In this document: one piece after another, positions 1-6,507 of the stretch | How the letters are laid out: each line of letters begins with the position of its first letter | Position numbering within the stretch: position 1 is the stretch's first letter | DNA from: Promethearchaeota archaeon | Lineage (GTDB): Archaea > Asgardarchaeota > Lokiarchaeia > Sigynarchaeales > SOKP01 | Assembly (NCBI GenBank): GCA_016839905.1 | Contig: JAEOTJ010000056.1 | Span: forward strand, 1 to 6,979 | DNA length: 6,979 nt | Direction: 5' to 3' | The notes under the pieces: generated by a model | What the model saw: only the letters and a program-made list of their open reading frames with translations | Database searches by the model: none | What the model was told of the DNA's origin: nothing | Position numbers and translations under genes: made by a program

Positions 1-320
1 AAACATGTTATAAAATGAGTCATCCCTTCATCAGCACTTCTCGTCTGCCGAGTCTCAAGATGAGCTTTATCATATCCACATAGAGGACATCGAAAATCTT
101 TAATCGTGCTTTTTAAATTTTTTTCTTTCCATTCCATAATAGTATCAGTATTGACCACTTCCTCTCTAATATCATGCTTAATCGTAGTTTTGAGTTTATA
201 AGAATCAGAGTTCTCATCGGAAAGTGGTTTTGTAGCACCACATCTGCATTTAAAAACTTTCTCGCCATCCACAGTTGATGGTAGCATCAACCCTCCACAG
301 TCATCACAAAATTCAACCAA
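1..320 (-). CDS. tfs: Transcription factor S (TFIIS-like RNA polymerase cleavage factor), 3' end cut by window edge
   Basis: Archaeal TFS rescues backtracked RNA polymerase by stimulating cleavage of the nascent RNA 3' end. I translated 106 codons on the minus strand. An N-terminal zinc ribbon has Cys5-x2-Cys8 and Cys25-x-Cys27. A charged linker of about 50 residues follows, then a C-terminal ribbon with CPLC (Cys78, Cys81) and Cys106; the last zinc Cys and a few residues lie beyond position 1. The hairpin RSADEGMT (94-101) carries the Asp97-Glu98 pair that enters the polymerase active site in TFIIS/TFS. This separates it from RPB9-type subunits, which lack the pair, so it should be cleavage-competent. 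The start is TTG at 318-320: an in-frame stop lies three codons upstream, and GGTGAT sits 5 bases before it. It follows the CitG-like gene by 13 bases and is probably cotranscribed with it. Family TFS is certain; which paralogue is not. Confidence 0.9.
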   Translation of the reverse strand, partial: MVEFCDDCGGLMLPSTVDGEKVFKCRCGATKPLSDENSDSYKLKTTIKHDIREEVVNTDTIMEWKEKNLKSTIKDFRCPLCGYDKAHLETRQTRSADEGMTHFITC

Positions 321-333: not shown

Positions 334-1302
334 TTAATACTTGAGGCCAAAAATTAAAGCACAAAAAATTATTCCTGCAACTAAATCTGCTGTTGTTCCA
401 GGATTCATTTGGCCTTTCTTACTCTGGAGATATTTATCCAATTCAAGAGTTAGGTTTAAACCCTTTTCTGTTGAAACCCCTCCATTTTCTACAATCTCCT
501 TCGCACGATTAGATACATCTATAGCCGATTTTAATCCAGATTTTCTAATTATTAATGTATCGGGGTGTTCAGCTAGTATTTTTAGGAAGGTATTTACAGT
601 TGCGGTATTGATGTCTTTTATTTGGTAAAAAACATCAAGGTAATATGGTAATCCCTCATTTAAGATAATTTCAAAACCAGTGGAGTACTCCTGACTAATT
701 AAATCATATTCTCTTGAGAGATCAAAGATTTTTTTGAGATCTATCTTATCCCTTGTAATTAAATCAATGGAATTCTCATCATTAAGGTCATACTTATCGA
801 TCTTTCCCATTCCGCCTGGTTTACATGTTTTTATTGCCTTATACAAGTTAACGGTATCTTCTACGGTTGCATCCTCAATAATTTTTTTAAGATTGTATAT
901 AAAATTATCAAATTTATTTTCATTCATTTTTAAGCAAATCATCGCCGCAGAAGCAAGAGGTGCTAAAATAAGAATATGTCCCAATATCACATTGCCTCCA
1001 CTTTGCCATTTCATCATTTGTTCCACAGCTTCTTTATAAAAACGACCTAAATTTACAAAACTATAGTCATCTGCGGTAATTGAAGGATTTTTGAGAATAT
1101 TTTTACAAAGAACTCTAAAATTCGGTTGAATTGCTATAATTCCTGCCAATAAATGTTCAAACCGAGTATCTTTAAAATCATGTGTACAATGAATATTTCC
1201 TGGTTTAGGCCATCCAGAAATTTCTAATAAACTTGTTAAATTAAGACATCGTAATATATCATCTATAGAATGAATAGATAAAATTGGTTCTTTTAATGGC
1301 AC
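334..1302 (-). CDS. CitG/MdcB-family triphosphoribosyl-dephospho-CoA synthase homologue
   Basis: In bacteria CitG joins ATP and dephospho-CoA, releasing adenine, to make the prosthetic-group precursor of citrate lyase; MdcB does the same for malonate decarboxylase. This 322-residue all-helical protein shows the family signatures in order: PKPGN (32-36) followed by D45-T-R-F-E-H, a GGNVILGH block (102-109) leading to AP-L (114-116), PGGMGK (162-167), and NPGTTADL (300-307) near the C-terminus. These are the conserved nucleotide/phosphate-binding segments, so it looks intact. Archaeal members of this family usually lack citrate lyase or malonate decarboxylase partners and none is present here, so the true substrate is open. 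The start codon is GTG, with no Shine-Dalgarno motif; an AT-rich TATA-like stretch about 20-25 bases upstream suggests a leaderless message. The gene lies between eL22 and tfs on the same strand. Family assignment is strong, reaction uncertain. Confidence 0.85.
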   Translation of the reverse strand: MPLKEPILSIHSIDDILRCLNLTSLLEISGWPKPGNIHCTHDFKDTRFEHLLAGIIAIQPNFRVLCKNILKNPSITADDYSFVNLGRFYKEAVEQMMKWQSGGNVILGHILILAPLASAAMICLKMNENKFDNFIYNLKKIIEDATVEDTVNLYKAIKTCKPGGMGKIDKYDLNDENSIDLITRDKIDLKKIFDLSREYDLISQEYSTGFEIILNEGLPYYLDVFYQIKDINTATVNTFLKILAEHPDTLIIRKSGLKSAIDVSNRAKEIVENGGVSTEKGLNLTLELDKYLQSKKGQMNPGTTADLVAGIIFCALIFGLKY

Positions 1303-1354: not shown

Positions 1355-1666
1355 TTAATAATAAGATAATTTAAGGATTCTCTTTTCCTTCACGATATAA
1401 CCATCTTTTTCTCCAGATTTAAATGAAATCGGTCTAAATTCACCCATCAATCCTTTTTTATATATGAATTTACGAATTCTAAGTTTTATTTTTTTTTTTG
1501 ACATCTTTTCCGGAACGGTGATTTCAAATTCATTTCCTGACCTTTCAATAGTGATTTGTGGAAGTTGTTCGATTAAATACCTTATTAAATCTTCGATTAA
1601 TTGCTCTGCTTTATAGCTTAGATCTTTAATATTAACAAAAATCTTTTTAGTATCTTCTTGAATCAT
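1355..1666 (-). CDS. rpl22e: Eukaryote-type large-subunit ribosomal protein eL22 (L22e)
   Basis: This small basic protein of 103 residues matches eukaryotic eL22 along most of its length. The N-terminal strand KKIFVNI (7-13) and helix EQLIEDLIRYLIEQL (21-35) correspond to the KFTLD strand and FEQFLQERI helix of human RPL22. QITIERSG (37-44) matches VVTIERSK. The segment MSKKKIKLRIRKFIYKKGL (55-73) matches the FSKRYLKYLTKKYLKKNNL helix, and GEFRPISF (75-82) matches DWLRVV. In eukaryotes eL22 is a peripheral RNA-binding protein of the 60S subunit. Homologues have been reported in Lokiarchaeota and are not part of the ordinary archaeal ribosome. The acidic tail of the human protein is absent. 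The comparison is from memory, so percent identity was not calculated. The gene is divergent from RuBisCO and is followed 52 bases later by the CitG-like gene on the same strand. Confidence 0.78.
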   Translation of the reverse strand: MIQEDTKKIFVNIKDLSYKAEQLIEDLIRYLIEQLPQITIERSGNEFEITVPEKMSKKKIKLRIRKFIYKKGLMGEFRPISFKSGEKDGYIVKEKRILKLSYY

Positions 1667-1748: not shown

Positions 1749-3419
1749 ATGGTTGATATTAAAAATTGGATAGTATTTCCTGAAAAAGTCAGCATACCTA
1801 TAGTAACTTGTAATCTATATGATGCATATGGATTCTCAATTCCAGATATAAAGTTAGTTGATGAAAAAATAAGTCAACGTTTTGGACCATATGTTTTTGA
1901 AGAAGCTTCAGAGTTCAACTTTGATGAAATAAAACAAAAATATATCATAATGTATCTATCTTTAAGTCCAAAATTCAAGGAAGGGGAGTCTTTAGAATAT
2001 GGATTATTTAAAGCGGCCTTGGATATTGCCGGAGAAGAAAGCACGGGATCTTGGGATCCTGATTTGAAAACAATTCTCCCTGGTGAAATGGATGAGAATT
2101 CAGAAGCCAATATGAAAATCCTCCAAGCAAAAGTGATTGGTTTGAATGTTAAAAATGGAATGGCAGCTATTGCAATGCCTAAAGAAGGATTTGAGTATGG
2201 TAATATTCCACAACTATTAAGCGTAGTAATGGGTAATTACACTGGAATGACCAGTGTAGTATGGGGTGTAAGATTAGAAGATTTGGATTTTCCCGATGAT
2301 TATGTTAATTCATTTTTAGGTCCTCAGGTTGGAAATGAGGGAATTAAAAAGTTGTTAGGTGATCACATCACAGTAGGGACGATTGTTAAGCCTAAAACAG
2401 GATTAAGTGAGGCAGATTGGGCTAAAACCGCTAAAAGATCATATCTTGCTGGACTTGATGTAGTAAAAGATGATGAAAATTTAACCTCTCAAGACTATTG
2501 CACTTTTGAGAAGCGAATTGAGCTTGTTTTTAAAGCAATCAAGGAAGTAAAAGATGAAACTGGTCGTGAATTGATGATGGTTCCTAATATTACTCATGGA
2601 GATATTGATGAAATGATTAAGAGAGGTGAATTGGTAACACAACTTGGAGGTAATTGTTTAATGATAGATATATTAGCTTGTGGAATAACCGCGGTTCAAA
2701 CTTTAAGAAAAAGATTTCCGAATATGGTATTCCATGGACATCGAGCAGGGCACGGAGCTCAAACCCTCTTCCCAGAAGTGATAATTGATGGAAAAAAATA
2801 TGACTTTCGACATGGTATTTCCATGAAAGTCTGGAGTTTAATTTCACGATTAGCGGGTATAGATCAGCTTCATATAGGGGCGCCAAAAGGCAAGATGGAA
2901 TCAACGCATAGAACAGTTTTAGAGAATTTAGAAGCATGTACAAGGCCATTAGGTAATATTAAAACAGTTCGAGCCATCTGTTCTGGTGGATTGAAAGCTA
3001 CCGTGATGTGGGATGTAGCATCGATAATGAATCCTATAGGAGATGAACCAAACATGGATATAATTTTTCAAGCTGGAGCTGGTTCTCACTCTCACGATTT
3101 AGGTACGCATGGAGGAGCCAAATCTTTAGCTCAAGCGCGAGATGCGATAATGAAAGGAATTGGAAAATTTAAAGCTATTAGCAATCATTTTGAATTAATA
3201 TTAGCATTTAGAAAATGGGAACCTGAAACCTATTTTGAATGGCTAAAAACTCTAACAAAAGACTCTAAAATTGTTGTACAACCAGATGAGAGACCATATT
3301 TTGCTGTGGGGAAAGAAAAAGGAAATCCTCCCAATCCCGTGGAAATAAAGGCAGCAATTGAAATATTTCCCGATTTAAAAAAGGATTTAGAAAAGTATAA
3401 TCTTGAAATATTAAAATAA
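1749..3419 (+). CDS. rbcL: Form III ribulose-1,5-bisphosphate carboxylase, extended at both ends
   Basis: Archaeal form III RuBisCO carboxylates ribulose-1,5-bisphosphate to two 3-phosphoglycerates in nucleoside salvage. Catalytic residues (spinach numbering in brackets) are kept: Glu96 (E60) in EESTGSW, Asn163 (N123), Lys214 and Lys216 (K175, K177) in IVKPKTGLS, the carbamylated Lys240 with Asp242-Glu243 (K201, D203, E204) in GLDVVKDDEN, His331/Arg332/His335 (H294, R295, H298) in HRAGH, loop-6 Lys382 (K334) in GAPKGKMES, and Ser412-Gly-Gly (S379) in CSGGL. This argues for a true carboxylase rather than a form IV RuBisCO-like protein. Two ligand positions differ: T65 is Ser101, and G404 of the phosphate loop appears as Ala444. 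At 556 residues it is over 100 longer than the usual form III enzyme (about 420-450). The extra lies before E60 (about 40-50 residues) and after the phosphate loop (about 60, through residue 556). I do not recognise either extension. It is convergent with the R15P isomerase gene. Confidence 0.92.
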   Translation: MVDIKNWIVFPEKVSIPIVTCNLYDAYGFSIPDIKLVDEKISQRFGPYVFEEASEFNFDEIKQKYIIMYLSLSPKFKEGESLEYGLFKAALDIAGEESTGSWDPDLKTILPGEMDENSEANMKILQAKVIGLNVKNGMAAIAMPKEGFEYGNIPQLLSVVMGNYTGMTSVVWGVRLEDLDFPDDYVNSFLGPQVGNEGIKKLLGDHITVGTIVKPKTGLSEADWAKTAKRSYLAGLDVVKDDENLTSQDYCTFEKRIELVFKAIKEVKDETGRELMMVPNITHGDIDEMIKRGELVTQLGGNCLMIDILACGITAVQTLRKRFPNMVFHGHRAGHGAQTLFPEVIIDGKKYDFRHGISMKVWSLISRLAGIDQLHIGAPKGKMESTHRTVLENLEACTRPLGNIKTVRAICSGGLKATVMWDVASIMNPIGDEPNMDIIFQAGAGSHSHDLGTHGGAKSLAQARDAIMKGIGKFKAISNHFELILAFRKWEPETYFEWLKTLTKDSKIVVQPDERPYFAVGKEKGNPPNPVEIKAAIEIFPDLKKDLEKYNLEILK

Positions 3420-3454: not shown

Positions 3455-4402
3455 TTAATCTATTAAATCAGGATACATCCTGGCAAATTGAAAATGGACA
3501 TGACTACTAGCAAATATGCCTGCCTCGGTAATTAATCCGTCTATATATCTCCTACTCACTGTCTCAAAAGCAGGATTCAAAACTTTCAACTTTTTTGGAT
3601 GTTGTTTCCAAACTTCTGCGGGATCTCTCATTTCTATTCGTTCAATAATCCCAAAAGAAGTTTCTGGATTATATTTTAATAGGGGAGTGGCAACATAGAA
3701 CGGCACGTGCTCTTCATGAGCTACTAATGCTAATAATCTAGAGCCAATCTTATTTAACACGGTTCCCTCACTTGTAATGCTATCAGCTCCGATTAAAATT
3801 AAATCGACTTCAAAACGATTAACTGCCCATCGCATGGCACTATCAACAACATGTATGACCTCTATACCTGCACCCATTAATTCTTTAGCAGTTTGTCTTC
3901 CTTGTAATCTTGGTTGAGTTTCAGTATTTATTACTTTAAAGTTATTCTTCCCTTGCTTTTTAGCTTCTAAAAGGATTCCTGTAACCACCGAAGAATGGCA
4001 ATGTGTCATTACAGTGAAGTGTTGCCCAGTTTGAACTTCTGGAATTCTCCTTGCTCCAATCTCGGCAATCTTTTTTTTCGAATTTTGAATCATCCTTTCA
4101 TATTTATTCTTGTAATGATCGATTTGGGACAATACATGCGTTTGATCAACTATTTCTTTCTTTTTAGACAGCTTATTGATAATAAAATTTAAGCCATTCC
4201 TCATTGCGGGTTCAGTTGGACGGGTATTAACAAGAATTTCTTTTGCTTCTTTTAATTTTGATAAATAATCTTCAGCAGTACAGCAATCTTCTAATCTTTT
4301 AGCATAATTACTTAAAAAATCAATGGCGCTAAGCGCTACATTTGTTGCTCCCTGTATTTCGAGAGAACTTATCCTTTCTGCATCCTTTAATAATTGTTCC
4401 AT
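3455..4402 (-). CDS. Ribose-1,5-bisphosphate isomerase (eIF2B alpha/beta/delta superfamily)
   Basis: The enzyme converts ribose-1,5-bisphosphate, made from AMP by AMP phosphorylase, to ribulose-1,5-bisphosphate for RuBisCO. The 315-residue protein has an N-terminal helical part with LEIQGATNVA (14-23) and TRPTEPAMRN (60-69), then a Rossmann-like C-terminal half. The two residues known to be catalytic in the Thermococcus enzyme (Cys133, Asp202) correspond to Cys135 in MTHCHSS and Asp207 in LIGADSIT, followed by Asn217-Lys218 in LNKIG. ETQPRLQGRQTA (161-172) is the substrate-loop signature of this subfamily. Methylthioribose-1-phosphate isomerase (MtnA) and archaeal eIF2B-like subunits share the fold. 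The QGA and RPTEP motifs, the two catalytic residues and the adjoining RuBisCO favour R15P isomerase. The start is ATG with GG ten bases upstream across a run of A. It is tail to tail with RuBisCO, so the two are not one operon. Confidence 0.87.
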   Translation of the reverse strand: MEQLLKDAERISSLEIQGATNVALSAIDFLSNYAKRLEDCCTAEDYLSKLKEAKEILVNTRPTEPAMRNGLNFIINKLSKKKEIVDQTHVLSQIDHYKNKYERMIQNSKKKIAEIGARRIPEVQTGQHFTVMTHCHSSVVTGILLEAKKQGKNNFKVINTETQPRLQGRQTAKELMGAGIEVIHVVDSAMRWAVNRFEVDLILIGADSITSEGTVLNKIGSRLLALVAHEEHVPFYVATPLLKYNPETSFGIIERIEMRDPAEVWKQHPKKLKVLNPAFETVSRRYIDGLITEAGIFASSHVHFQFARMYPDLID

Positions 4403-4530: not shown

Positions 4531-6507
4531 ATGGTTAAGTTAAAAATAAAGAATAAATGGTTTATTGATGATAACGATCGTATTGTACTGCTAAGAGGAT
4601 TAAATTTAGGTGGTAGTTCAAAAGTTCCCTTTAATCCGAATGGAGCTACTCATCTAAAGACCGATTTTAGTGATCATAGAGATGTATCTTTTATTGGTCG
4701 GCCTTTTTTTTTAAAGGAAGCTGATGAGCATTATAAACGTATAAAACATTGGGGCTTTAATTGCCTTAGATTTTTAATTATTTGGGAGGCAATTGAGCAT
4801 CGCGGTCCAAAAAAATATGATAATGAATATTTAGACTATTTAGAAGAAGTTCTTAAAATTGCTGAAAATTACGGTTTTTATATTATAATTGATCCTCATC
4901 AAGATGTTTGGAGTAGAATGACTGGTGGGGATGGTGCTCCATGCTGGATTTTTGAGAAGATTGGTTTGGATTTTACTAAATTTAATGAATCTGAAGCGGC
5001 TATTCTCATGCAAAATAGATATGATCCTAATAACTTAGATGCTTATCCTCATTTAATTTGGCCAAATAATGCTCATAGATTTGCTAATGGGACAATGTGG
5101 ACATTATTTTTTGGTGGTAAAGATTTAGCACCATCTTGTAAAATAGATGGAATTAATGTTCAAGATTACTTGCAAGATCATTATATTGAAGCTATAAGGC
5201 AGGTTGCCTTAAGAGTTAAGGATTATAAATATATTATTGGTTTTGATACTTTAAATGAACCACAGAAAGGATGGATAGGTAAAATGGTTAATCAAGGGGC
5301 ACAAAAGGGATTTAGTGAGGAATTAGGACACTCATTTACTCCTTTTGATGCTATACTTACCGGGTCTGGTCATTCTAGAGAAGTTGGTTATACTGAAATA
5401 AAAATTTCAGAAACAGTAGAAACACGAAGAGATATTTTAAACAAAAATAAAGTATCTTGTTGGGTTGATGAAAATGAAGATATCTGGAAAAATGAAGGTG
5501 TTTGGGGATTAGATGACGACGGAGAACCAATTATTTTGAAAAATGATTTTTTTACGACTAAGAACGGTAAAAATATTAATTTTTATAGAGATTATCTAGT
5601 TCCTTTCATCATGAGATATTCTGAAGGTATTCAAAGCATTATTCCTGAAGCCATAATCTTTTTTGAAGGTCCTGAAGGTACATTTACTACAAAACACTTT
5701 AAAGCACTTAGTAAAGATTATCATGATGCTATAGAAGATTTAAAGAGAAAAGGTAATGCCCTTAAATCTATAGCCTTTGCAGCTCATTGGTATGACATAG
5801 GAACATATGCATCAAAGACACATTTATTTAAAATCAATAAAGACATCATTACAAATGAAATAATATATGGAGAAGAAAATGTTCAAAATATGTTTATTAA
5901 TCAATTATCAACTATCAAGAGTATTTCTAAAAATATCAATGAAGGAATACCTACTTTAATTGGAGAATTTGGATTAATTTATAATTTAAATAATAAAAAA
6001 GCCTTTAGACTATTTAAAAGAAATCCAGAAAAAGCTTGGGCTCCATACGTGAAATTATTAAACATGTATTATAATGCAATGGATGCGAATATATTAAGTT
6101 CAACTCAATGGAATTATACAGCAGATAATTGTAATGAATGGGGGGATTTATGGAATTTAGAAGATTTTTCAATTTTTAGTAGAGATCAACAAAATAATCC
6201 TAAAGATATTAATAGTGGAGGAAGGGCAATAAAGGGATTCTGTCGGCCACATTTTATTTATTGTGCGGGAATACCATTGAAGATGGAGTTTAATATTAAG
6301 GATGGAACCTTCAATTTTAAATTTGAAGGAAAATCTATTATTAAAGCTCCAACAACTCTTTATGTTCCAGATATCCACTATCCGAATGGCTATGACATAA
6401 CTTCCCAACCAGAAGGAGAAATTGAAAGAATTTCTAATAGACAGTTATTAAATATTTATACTAAGAAAGATGGAATTTTTAATGTTAAAATCACTAAAAA
6501 TCCTTAG
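4531..6507 (+). CDS. GH5 glycosidase of the endoglycoceramidase / steryl-beta-glucosidase type (GH5_12-like)
   Basis: A retaining beta-glycosidase of 658 residues. The (beta/alpha)8 domain opens with VLLRGLNLGGSSKVP (19-33) and DPHQDVWSR (121-129) followed by GGDGAP (132-137). It holds the acid/base Glu243 in TLNEP (240-244), AAHWYD (417-422), the nucleophile Glu479 in LIGEFG (476-481), and STQWNYT (524-530). The GHSFTPFDA block (266-274) and the region to about residue 350 resemble the insertion of fungal GH5_12 enzymes such as the Cryptococcus glucocerebrosidase/ergosteryl-glucosidase. After about residue 570 a beta-rich domain, beginning RPHFIYCAGIPL, matches the endoglycosidase C-terminal domain. 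There is no signal peptide or membrane segment, so it should be cytosolic, as the fungal relatives are. Family members cleave glucose from glucosylceramide or sterylglucosides. Archaea do not usually make these, so the natural substrate is unknown; an archaeal glycolipid or a scavenged lipid glycoside is possible. GH5 assignment and catalytic residues are firm, the subfamily fairly so. Confidence 0.88.
   Translation: MVKLKIKNKWFIDDNDRIVLLRGLNLGGSSKVPFNPNGATHLKTDFSDHRDVSFIGRPFFLKEADEHYKRIKHWGFNCLRFLIIWEAIEHRGPKKYDNEYLDYLEEVLKIAENYGFYIIIDPHQDVWSRMTGGDGAPCWIFEKIGLDFTKFNESEAAILMQNRYDPNNLDAYPHLIWPNNAHRFANGTMWTLFFGGKDLAPSCKIDGINVQDYLQDHYIEAIRQVALRVKDYKYIIGFDTLNEPQKGWIGKMVNQGAQKGFSEELGHSFTPFDAILTGSGHSREVGYTEIKISETVETRRDILNKNKVSCWVDENEDIWKNEGVWGLDDDGEPIILKNDFFTTKNGKNINFYRDYLVPFIMRYSEGIQSIIPEAIIFFEGPEGTFTTKHFKALSKDYHDAIEDLKRKGNALKSIAFAAHWYDIGTYASKTHLFKINKDIITNEIIYGEENVQNMFINQLSTIKSISKNINEGIPTLIGEFGLIYNLNNKKAFRLFKRNPEKAWAPYVKLLNMYYNAMDANILSSTQWNYTADNCNEWGDLWNLEDFSIFSRDQQNNPKDINSGGRAIKGFCRPHFIYCAGIPLKMEFNIKDGTFNFKFEGKSIIKAPTTLYVPDIHYPNGYDITSQPEGEIERISNRQLLNIYTKKDGIFNVKITKNP

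Follow-up and report, generated by a model that had tools for sequence, protein, structure and literature searches.

Introduction

To our knowledge, the large-subunit ribosomal protein eL22 was long thought to occur in eukaryotes only. A putative L22e of Lokiarchaeum is on record in the part of PMC4571567 available to us, and the available part of a paper from 2022 (PMC8997704) mentions eL22 and eL28 in some Asgards, crediting Zaremba-Niedzwiedzka et al. 2017. Here we describe an eL22-like gene in a 6,979-nucleotide stretch of contig JAEOTJ010000056.1 from a Promethearchaeota archaeon; this whole stretch is called the window below. The gene is very probably the archaeal orthologue of eL22, acting in the large ribosomal subunit through binding of ribosomal RNA (rRNA). 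An Asgard homologue of eL22 is in itself not new, because L22e/eL22 of Lokiarchaeum and other Asgards has already been published, and the window protein is a further member of that protein kind. What the present analysis adds is the breadth of its spread, the conserved gene order, and the fact that the standard cut-off misses the window protein and many other members.

With eukaryotic eL22 (PF01776; RPL22) the window protein shares the predicted fold, the sequence of the core, which runs from the first strand of the hairpin through the basic helix, the basic RNA-binding residues and the domain size. It differs in having fewer residues ahead of the first strand, and the C-terminal end conserved in its group is rich in K, E and Y, whereas eukaryotic eL22 has an acidic tail. 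The Lokiarchaeum L22e (PMC4571567) and the other Asgard eL22 proteins, as described in the available parts of these sources, are of the same protein kind and archaeal group, and no difference in kind from them is known.

Gene and family

The gene and the segment discussed most below are:

1355..1666, minus strand: eL22 homologue of 103 amino acids (ATG at 1666, stop at 1355)
1448..1504, minus strand: codons 55-73, a segment with the basic helix corresponding to the RNA-binding helix in eL22 of eukaryotes (placed from the helix of the predicted model and the conservation of basic residues)

This frame is a real, conserved gene and not a chance one, because it has relatives of similar length that are 55-99% identical, and a wider family of 542 proteins. 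The relatives came from a first protein search, in which 13 of the 21 candidates, all 101-104 amino acids long, had E ≤ 0.01; the nearest named ones were Promethearchaeota/Lokiarchaeota proteins. Alignment of 12 of the 13 to the window protein showed a single-residue insertion in one and gaps of 1-2 residues near the N terminus. The 542 proteins were obtained with the 14-member alignment, and among the best 120 some are named at their source '60S ribosomal protein L22 [Promethearchaeota archaeon]'. The product is basic (isoelectric point 9.6) and contains both motifs quoted in an earlier note made from the sequence of the window, QITIERSG (residues 37-44) and MSKKKIKLRIRKFIYKKGL (residues 55-73).

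Entries named '60S ribosomal protein L22' were found by the family profiles in Promethearchaeota, Hodarchaeota, Helarchaeota, Baldrarchaeia and Thorarchaeota (e.g., P0070, P0075, P0100, P0124, P0139 and P0165). Over the aligned part, their identity to the window protein ranged from 62% (P0075) and 54% (P0070) down to 25-27% (P0124, P0139 and P0165).

On its own, the window protein resembles eL22 weakly; with its relatives, and in the predicted fold, the resemblance is clear. When the window protein alone was compared with the PDB using phmmer, an L22 chain from Spraguea (E 0.011) ranked after an unrelated Rap-GEF chain (E 0.0075). Such weak and mixed matches are what one might see if an unrelated small archaeal protein with a similar fold resembled eL22 by chance. 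We then consider the family, represented by alignments of 71 rows (A3) and 37 rows (A4, the broad profile). Individually, 62 of the 71 aligned members matched PF01776 with E ≤ 0.01, down to 1.7e-6; the 9 others include the window protein. Against the PDB, the 71-member profile matched 63 distinct sequences at E ≤ 1, with eL22 chains from 2.2e-6 onward. The best 60 of these 63 included two unrelated chains (1wgy and 7upp) and three otherwise named (8jiv, 5it7 and 6uz7), of which 5it7 and 6uz7 are, according to the structure-comparison listing, entries of a yeast ribosome or of the same protein name. The 37-member profile, with diverse members from the whole phylum, reached a best E of 8.2e-13 and covered almost the whole domain. 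These family-profile E-values are the significant eL22 match that contradicts a chance resemblance; together with a predicted fold that spans almost the entire chain and a basic helix in register (see below), they make that explanation extremely improbable. We regard homology to eL22 as practically certain.

Other families were tried as well. The eIF2-beta/eIF5 domain (PF01873) scored 13.4 against a required 27 bits (E 0.075) and FAM193_C 14.2 against 27 bits with the window protein alone; both were set aside because none of the 71 members matched them at E ≤ 0.01. The rivals seen with the single sequence lose ground once the family profile is used: eIF2-beta chains are absent from the best 60 of its 63 PDB matches, and the Rap-GEF chain 1wgy reaches only E 0.093. 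TIGR00413 (RlpA), scored on the window protein alone, gave 12.9 against 82.15 bits and was rejected on that score. PF09286 (Pro-kumamolisin activation), matched by one of the 71 members (E 0.00065), was also set aside.

The identification as eL22 proposed in the earlier note is thus borne out by the PF01776 matches of the relatives, the PDB E-values of the family profiles and the predicted fold. Of the outcomes it had named as speaking against eL22 (no profile match, an unlike fold, or a better unrelated family), none was obtained. The profile check that it suggested succeeded for the family but not for the window protein alone. Its remark that homologues had been reported from Lokiarchaeota agrees with the L22e of Lokiarchaeum and the eL22 of other Asgards, both in the available parts of the printed sources and in public annotation.

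Predicted structure and putative RNA-binding residues

The structure predicted for the window protein has the eL22 fold over nearly the whole chain, with 15-26% identity to eukaryotic eL22 in structural alignments; the check by structure prediction therefore came out as the earlier note had expected. In the model, residues 57-70 form a helix, in which residues 57, 58, 61, 65, 66 and 70 are basic. At these six positions a basic residue is found in 70, 71, 71, 71, 71 and 69 of the 71 rows of A3, and in 33, 32, 37, 34, 37 and 25 of the 37 rows of A4, respectively.

Positions 38-85 of the 71-member profile aligned to residues 61-108 of the 128-residue PDB chain 22tu_LU, two spans of equal length. 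We take this chain to be the human protein, going by the entry codes listed with it. With this alignment, human residues 80-93 would correspond to residues 57-70 of the window protein. According to the available part of PMC2668802, the binding of EBER-1 and 28S rRNA by human L22 requires its basic residues 88-93, with a contribution from residues 80-84. As a feature of the sequence, the basic RNA-binding helix of eL22 is hence found in the window protein.

Distribution in the phylum

The survey covered the phylum of 'Candidatus Harpocratesius' (G001) with 227 genomes, and a match was counted when its E, calculated for one genome, was at most 0.01. The narrow profile A2 matched 96 genomes, the broad profile A4 107, and PF01776 83, 40 of them above its cut-off; PF01776 matched none of 14 control genomes. 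Adding the most divergent members to A4 (profile A5) gave 106 genomes, and the profile iteration was ended there because the count did not rise. Three genomes (G003, G049 and G068) were matched by PF01776 and missed by A2; the A4 matches coincided in position with those of PF01776 in G003 and G068 but lay elsewhere in G049.

A single A2 match was present in 94 of the 96 genomes. The second matches in the other two were a weak one with stops (G109) and, in G147, a partial piece beside a near-complete one. With A4, second matches occurred in 6 of the 107 genomes; the two A4 pieces in G227, at a contig end and at base 1 of a contig, perhaps belong to one split gene. All tallies retain some weak rows with stops or inside long unrelated frames that are probably chance matches (e.g., G109 C298 for A2; G109 C192 and G049 C28:26708 for PF01776; G079, G113 C35 and G086 C51 for A4; G118 C52 for A5).

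A short divergent form of eL22 occurs in 11 genomes (G043-G050 and G052-G054). A4, built without any of them, found all 11 (E 1.8e-7 to 4.3e-4), and they are counted here, albeit as the weakest members. PF01776 matched at those places in 2 of the 11 (G052 and G054, E about 0.003).

Some family members have additional features. The eL22-like proteins at L046:926-1333 and L050:2830-3225 have an insertion, rich in lysine and about 30 residues long, ahead of the basic helix. Four 93-residue eL22-like proteins with PF01776 (P0181-P0184), given without a taxon, could belong to none of the Asgard clades sampled.

Probable ribosomal role and possible origin

Our reading of the gene as an eL22 orthologue builds on a real gene, homology, the predicted fold, a conserved basic face, the nearly always single match per genome and the wide spread in the phylum. 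The protein would adopt the eL22 alpha/beta domain fold, and its conserved basic helix (residues 57-70) would bind large-subunit rRNA, as eL22 does in the 60S subunit. We infer rRNA binding, the binding site and incorporation into the ribosome from these features.

Several observations weigh against this reading. The window protein alone scored 15.3 bits with PF01776 (E 0.026), below the gathering cut-off of 23.6 bits; usual single-protein annotation misses it because this cut-off is too strict for its group. The NCBIfam scan of the window protein contained no eL22 match, in a library whose possession of such a model was not checked. No archaeal chain was among the PDB matches listed for the 71- and 37-member profiles, so there is no solved archaeal eL22 in support. 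A4 found no match in 120 of the 227 genomes, where the gene may be lost, too divergent, or missing from incomplete assemblies (completeness was not given). Finally, no ribosomal protein was found among the neighbours scanned, 7 in the window and 20 in 12 divergent loci (6 of the 20 without a Pfam match).

The last point also bears on a different role, in which an RNA-binding protein of eL22 fold works off the ribosome, e.g., by regulating its own or neighbouring messages, and was recruited into the eukaryotic 60S subunit later. Those neighbours that were identified serve transcription, tRNA charging or metabolism or are GTPases, and eukaryotic L22 also binds the non-ribosomal EBER-1 (PMC2668802, available part). 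On the other hand, the gene is widely retained, nearly always as a single match per genome, and the basic helix is the same as the one with which human L22 binds 28S rRNA in the available part of that source. We therefore consider an off-ribosome role unlikely and the ribosomal one strongly favoured.

Few 'eukaryote-only' ribosomal proteins are known from Asgard archaea, and the window protein is a well-supported addition to them. Because the family is widespread in the phylum but unevenly distributed, the time at which eL22 arose becomes a testable question. Tentatively, and at somewhat less than an even chance, eL22 may have been in the large subunit of the common Asgard ancestor, been lost or become unrecognisable in several clades, and reached eukaryotes by descent. 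A separate observation touches this possibility: in one clade (L045:4881-5192, L057:4598-4909 and L068:4889-5203) the eL22 homologues, unlike those of the window's group, have consecutive glutamates at the C terminus, which resemble the acidic tail of eukaryotic eL22.

Genomic context

The other genes identified in the window are:

3..320, minus strand: transcription factor S with TFIIS-type zinc ribbons, running off the window
334..1302, minus strand: CitG-like gene (PF01874), just after eL22 on the same strand
1749..3419, plus strand: RuBisCO large-chain homologue, long form of 556 amino acids, divergent from eL22
3455..4402, minus strand: ribose-1,5-bisphosphate-isomerase-like protein of the IF-2B family (TIGR00511, 234.8 bits against a cut-off of 314.1)
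4531-6507, plus strand: GH5-type glycosidase (best NCBIfam match endoglycoceramidase I, far under the cut-off)

Beyond the glycosidase, a 62-residue protein containing two CxxC motifs is followed by the beginning of a GIY-YIG protein that may be UvrC.

We compared this order with 24 loci with wide flanks taken from strong matches (L062-L066 and L070-L088), called Lokiarchaeal-type after the names of family members. The CitG-like gene adjoins eL22 on the same strand in all 24. Matches were found for RuBisCO in 23 loci, 21 of them with the divergent orientation, for transcription factor S in 22, for the isomerase and the 62-residue protein in 21 each, and for the GIY-YIG start in 20; the RuBisCO miss (L088) and the transcription factor S misses (L071 and L075) are at contig ends. 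The glycosidase, which in the window stands between the isomerase and the 62-residue protein, was found in none of these 24 and in none of all 56 loci compared. A scan with RuBisCO brought up two Lokiarchaeal contigs. Along with the nearest named proteins and the eL22/CitG pair, these contigs agree with the Asgard origin that the earlier note had assigned to the window.

Five distant loci (L002, L054, L055, L058 and L089), in which eL22 is 29-38% identical to the window protein, likewise have the CitG-like gene beside eL22, an adjacency that supports orthology. In the remaining 27 loci compared, no CitG-like gene was found beside eL22. Neighbours elsewhere include a class I tRNA synthetase (L044 and L048), adenylosuccinate synthetase with a carbon-nitrogen hydrolase (L045 and L057), Arf/Ras-type GTPases (L039 and L040) and radical-SAM proteins (L052 and L061), and L002 has an Spt5 gene at a distance of about 2.5 kilobases from eL22.

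The RuBisCO of the window appears to have been swapped in place. It is 65-66% identical to the forms in L001 and L002 and 49% to that in L058, while the 23 RuBisCOs matched in this slot among the Lokiarchaeal-type loci all have 418-437 amino acids and share 34-38% identity with it. A tree of four neighbouring genes (L001 left out) put the window among the Lokiarchaeal loci, with several low supports (0.30-0.84), and the RuBisCO tree put it with L001/L002 (0.97) and L058 (1.00). Another RuBisCO lineage occupies the slot at L086:5449-6720 and L087:3709-4962, on the same strand as eL22 and not divergent from it.
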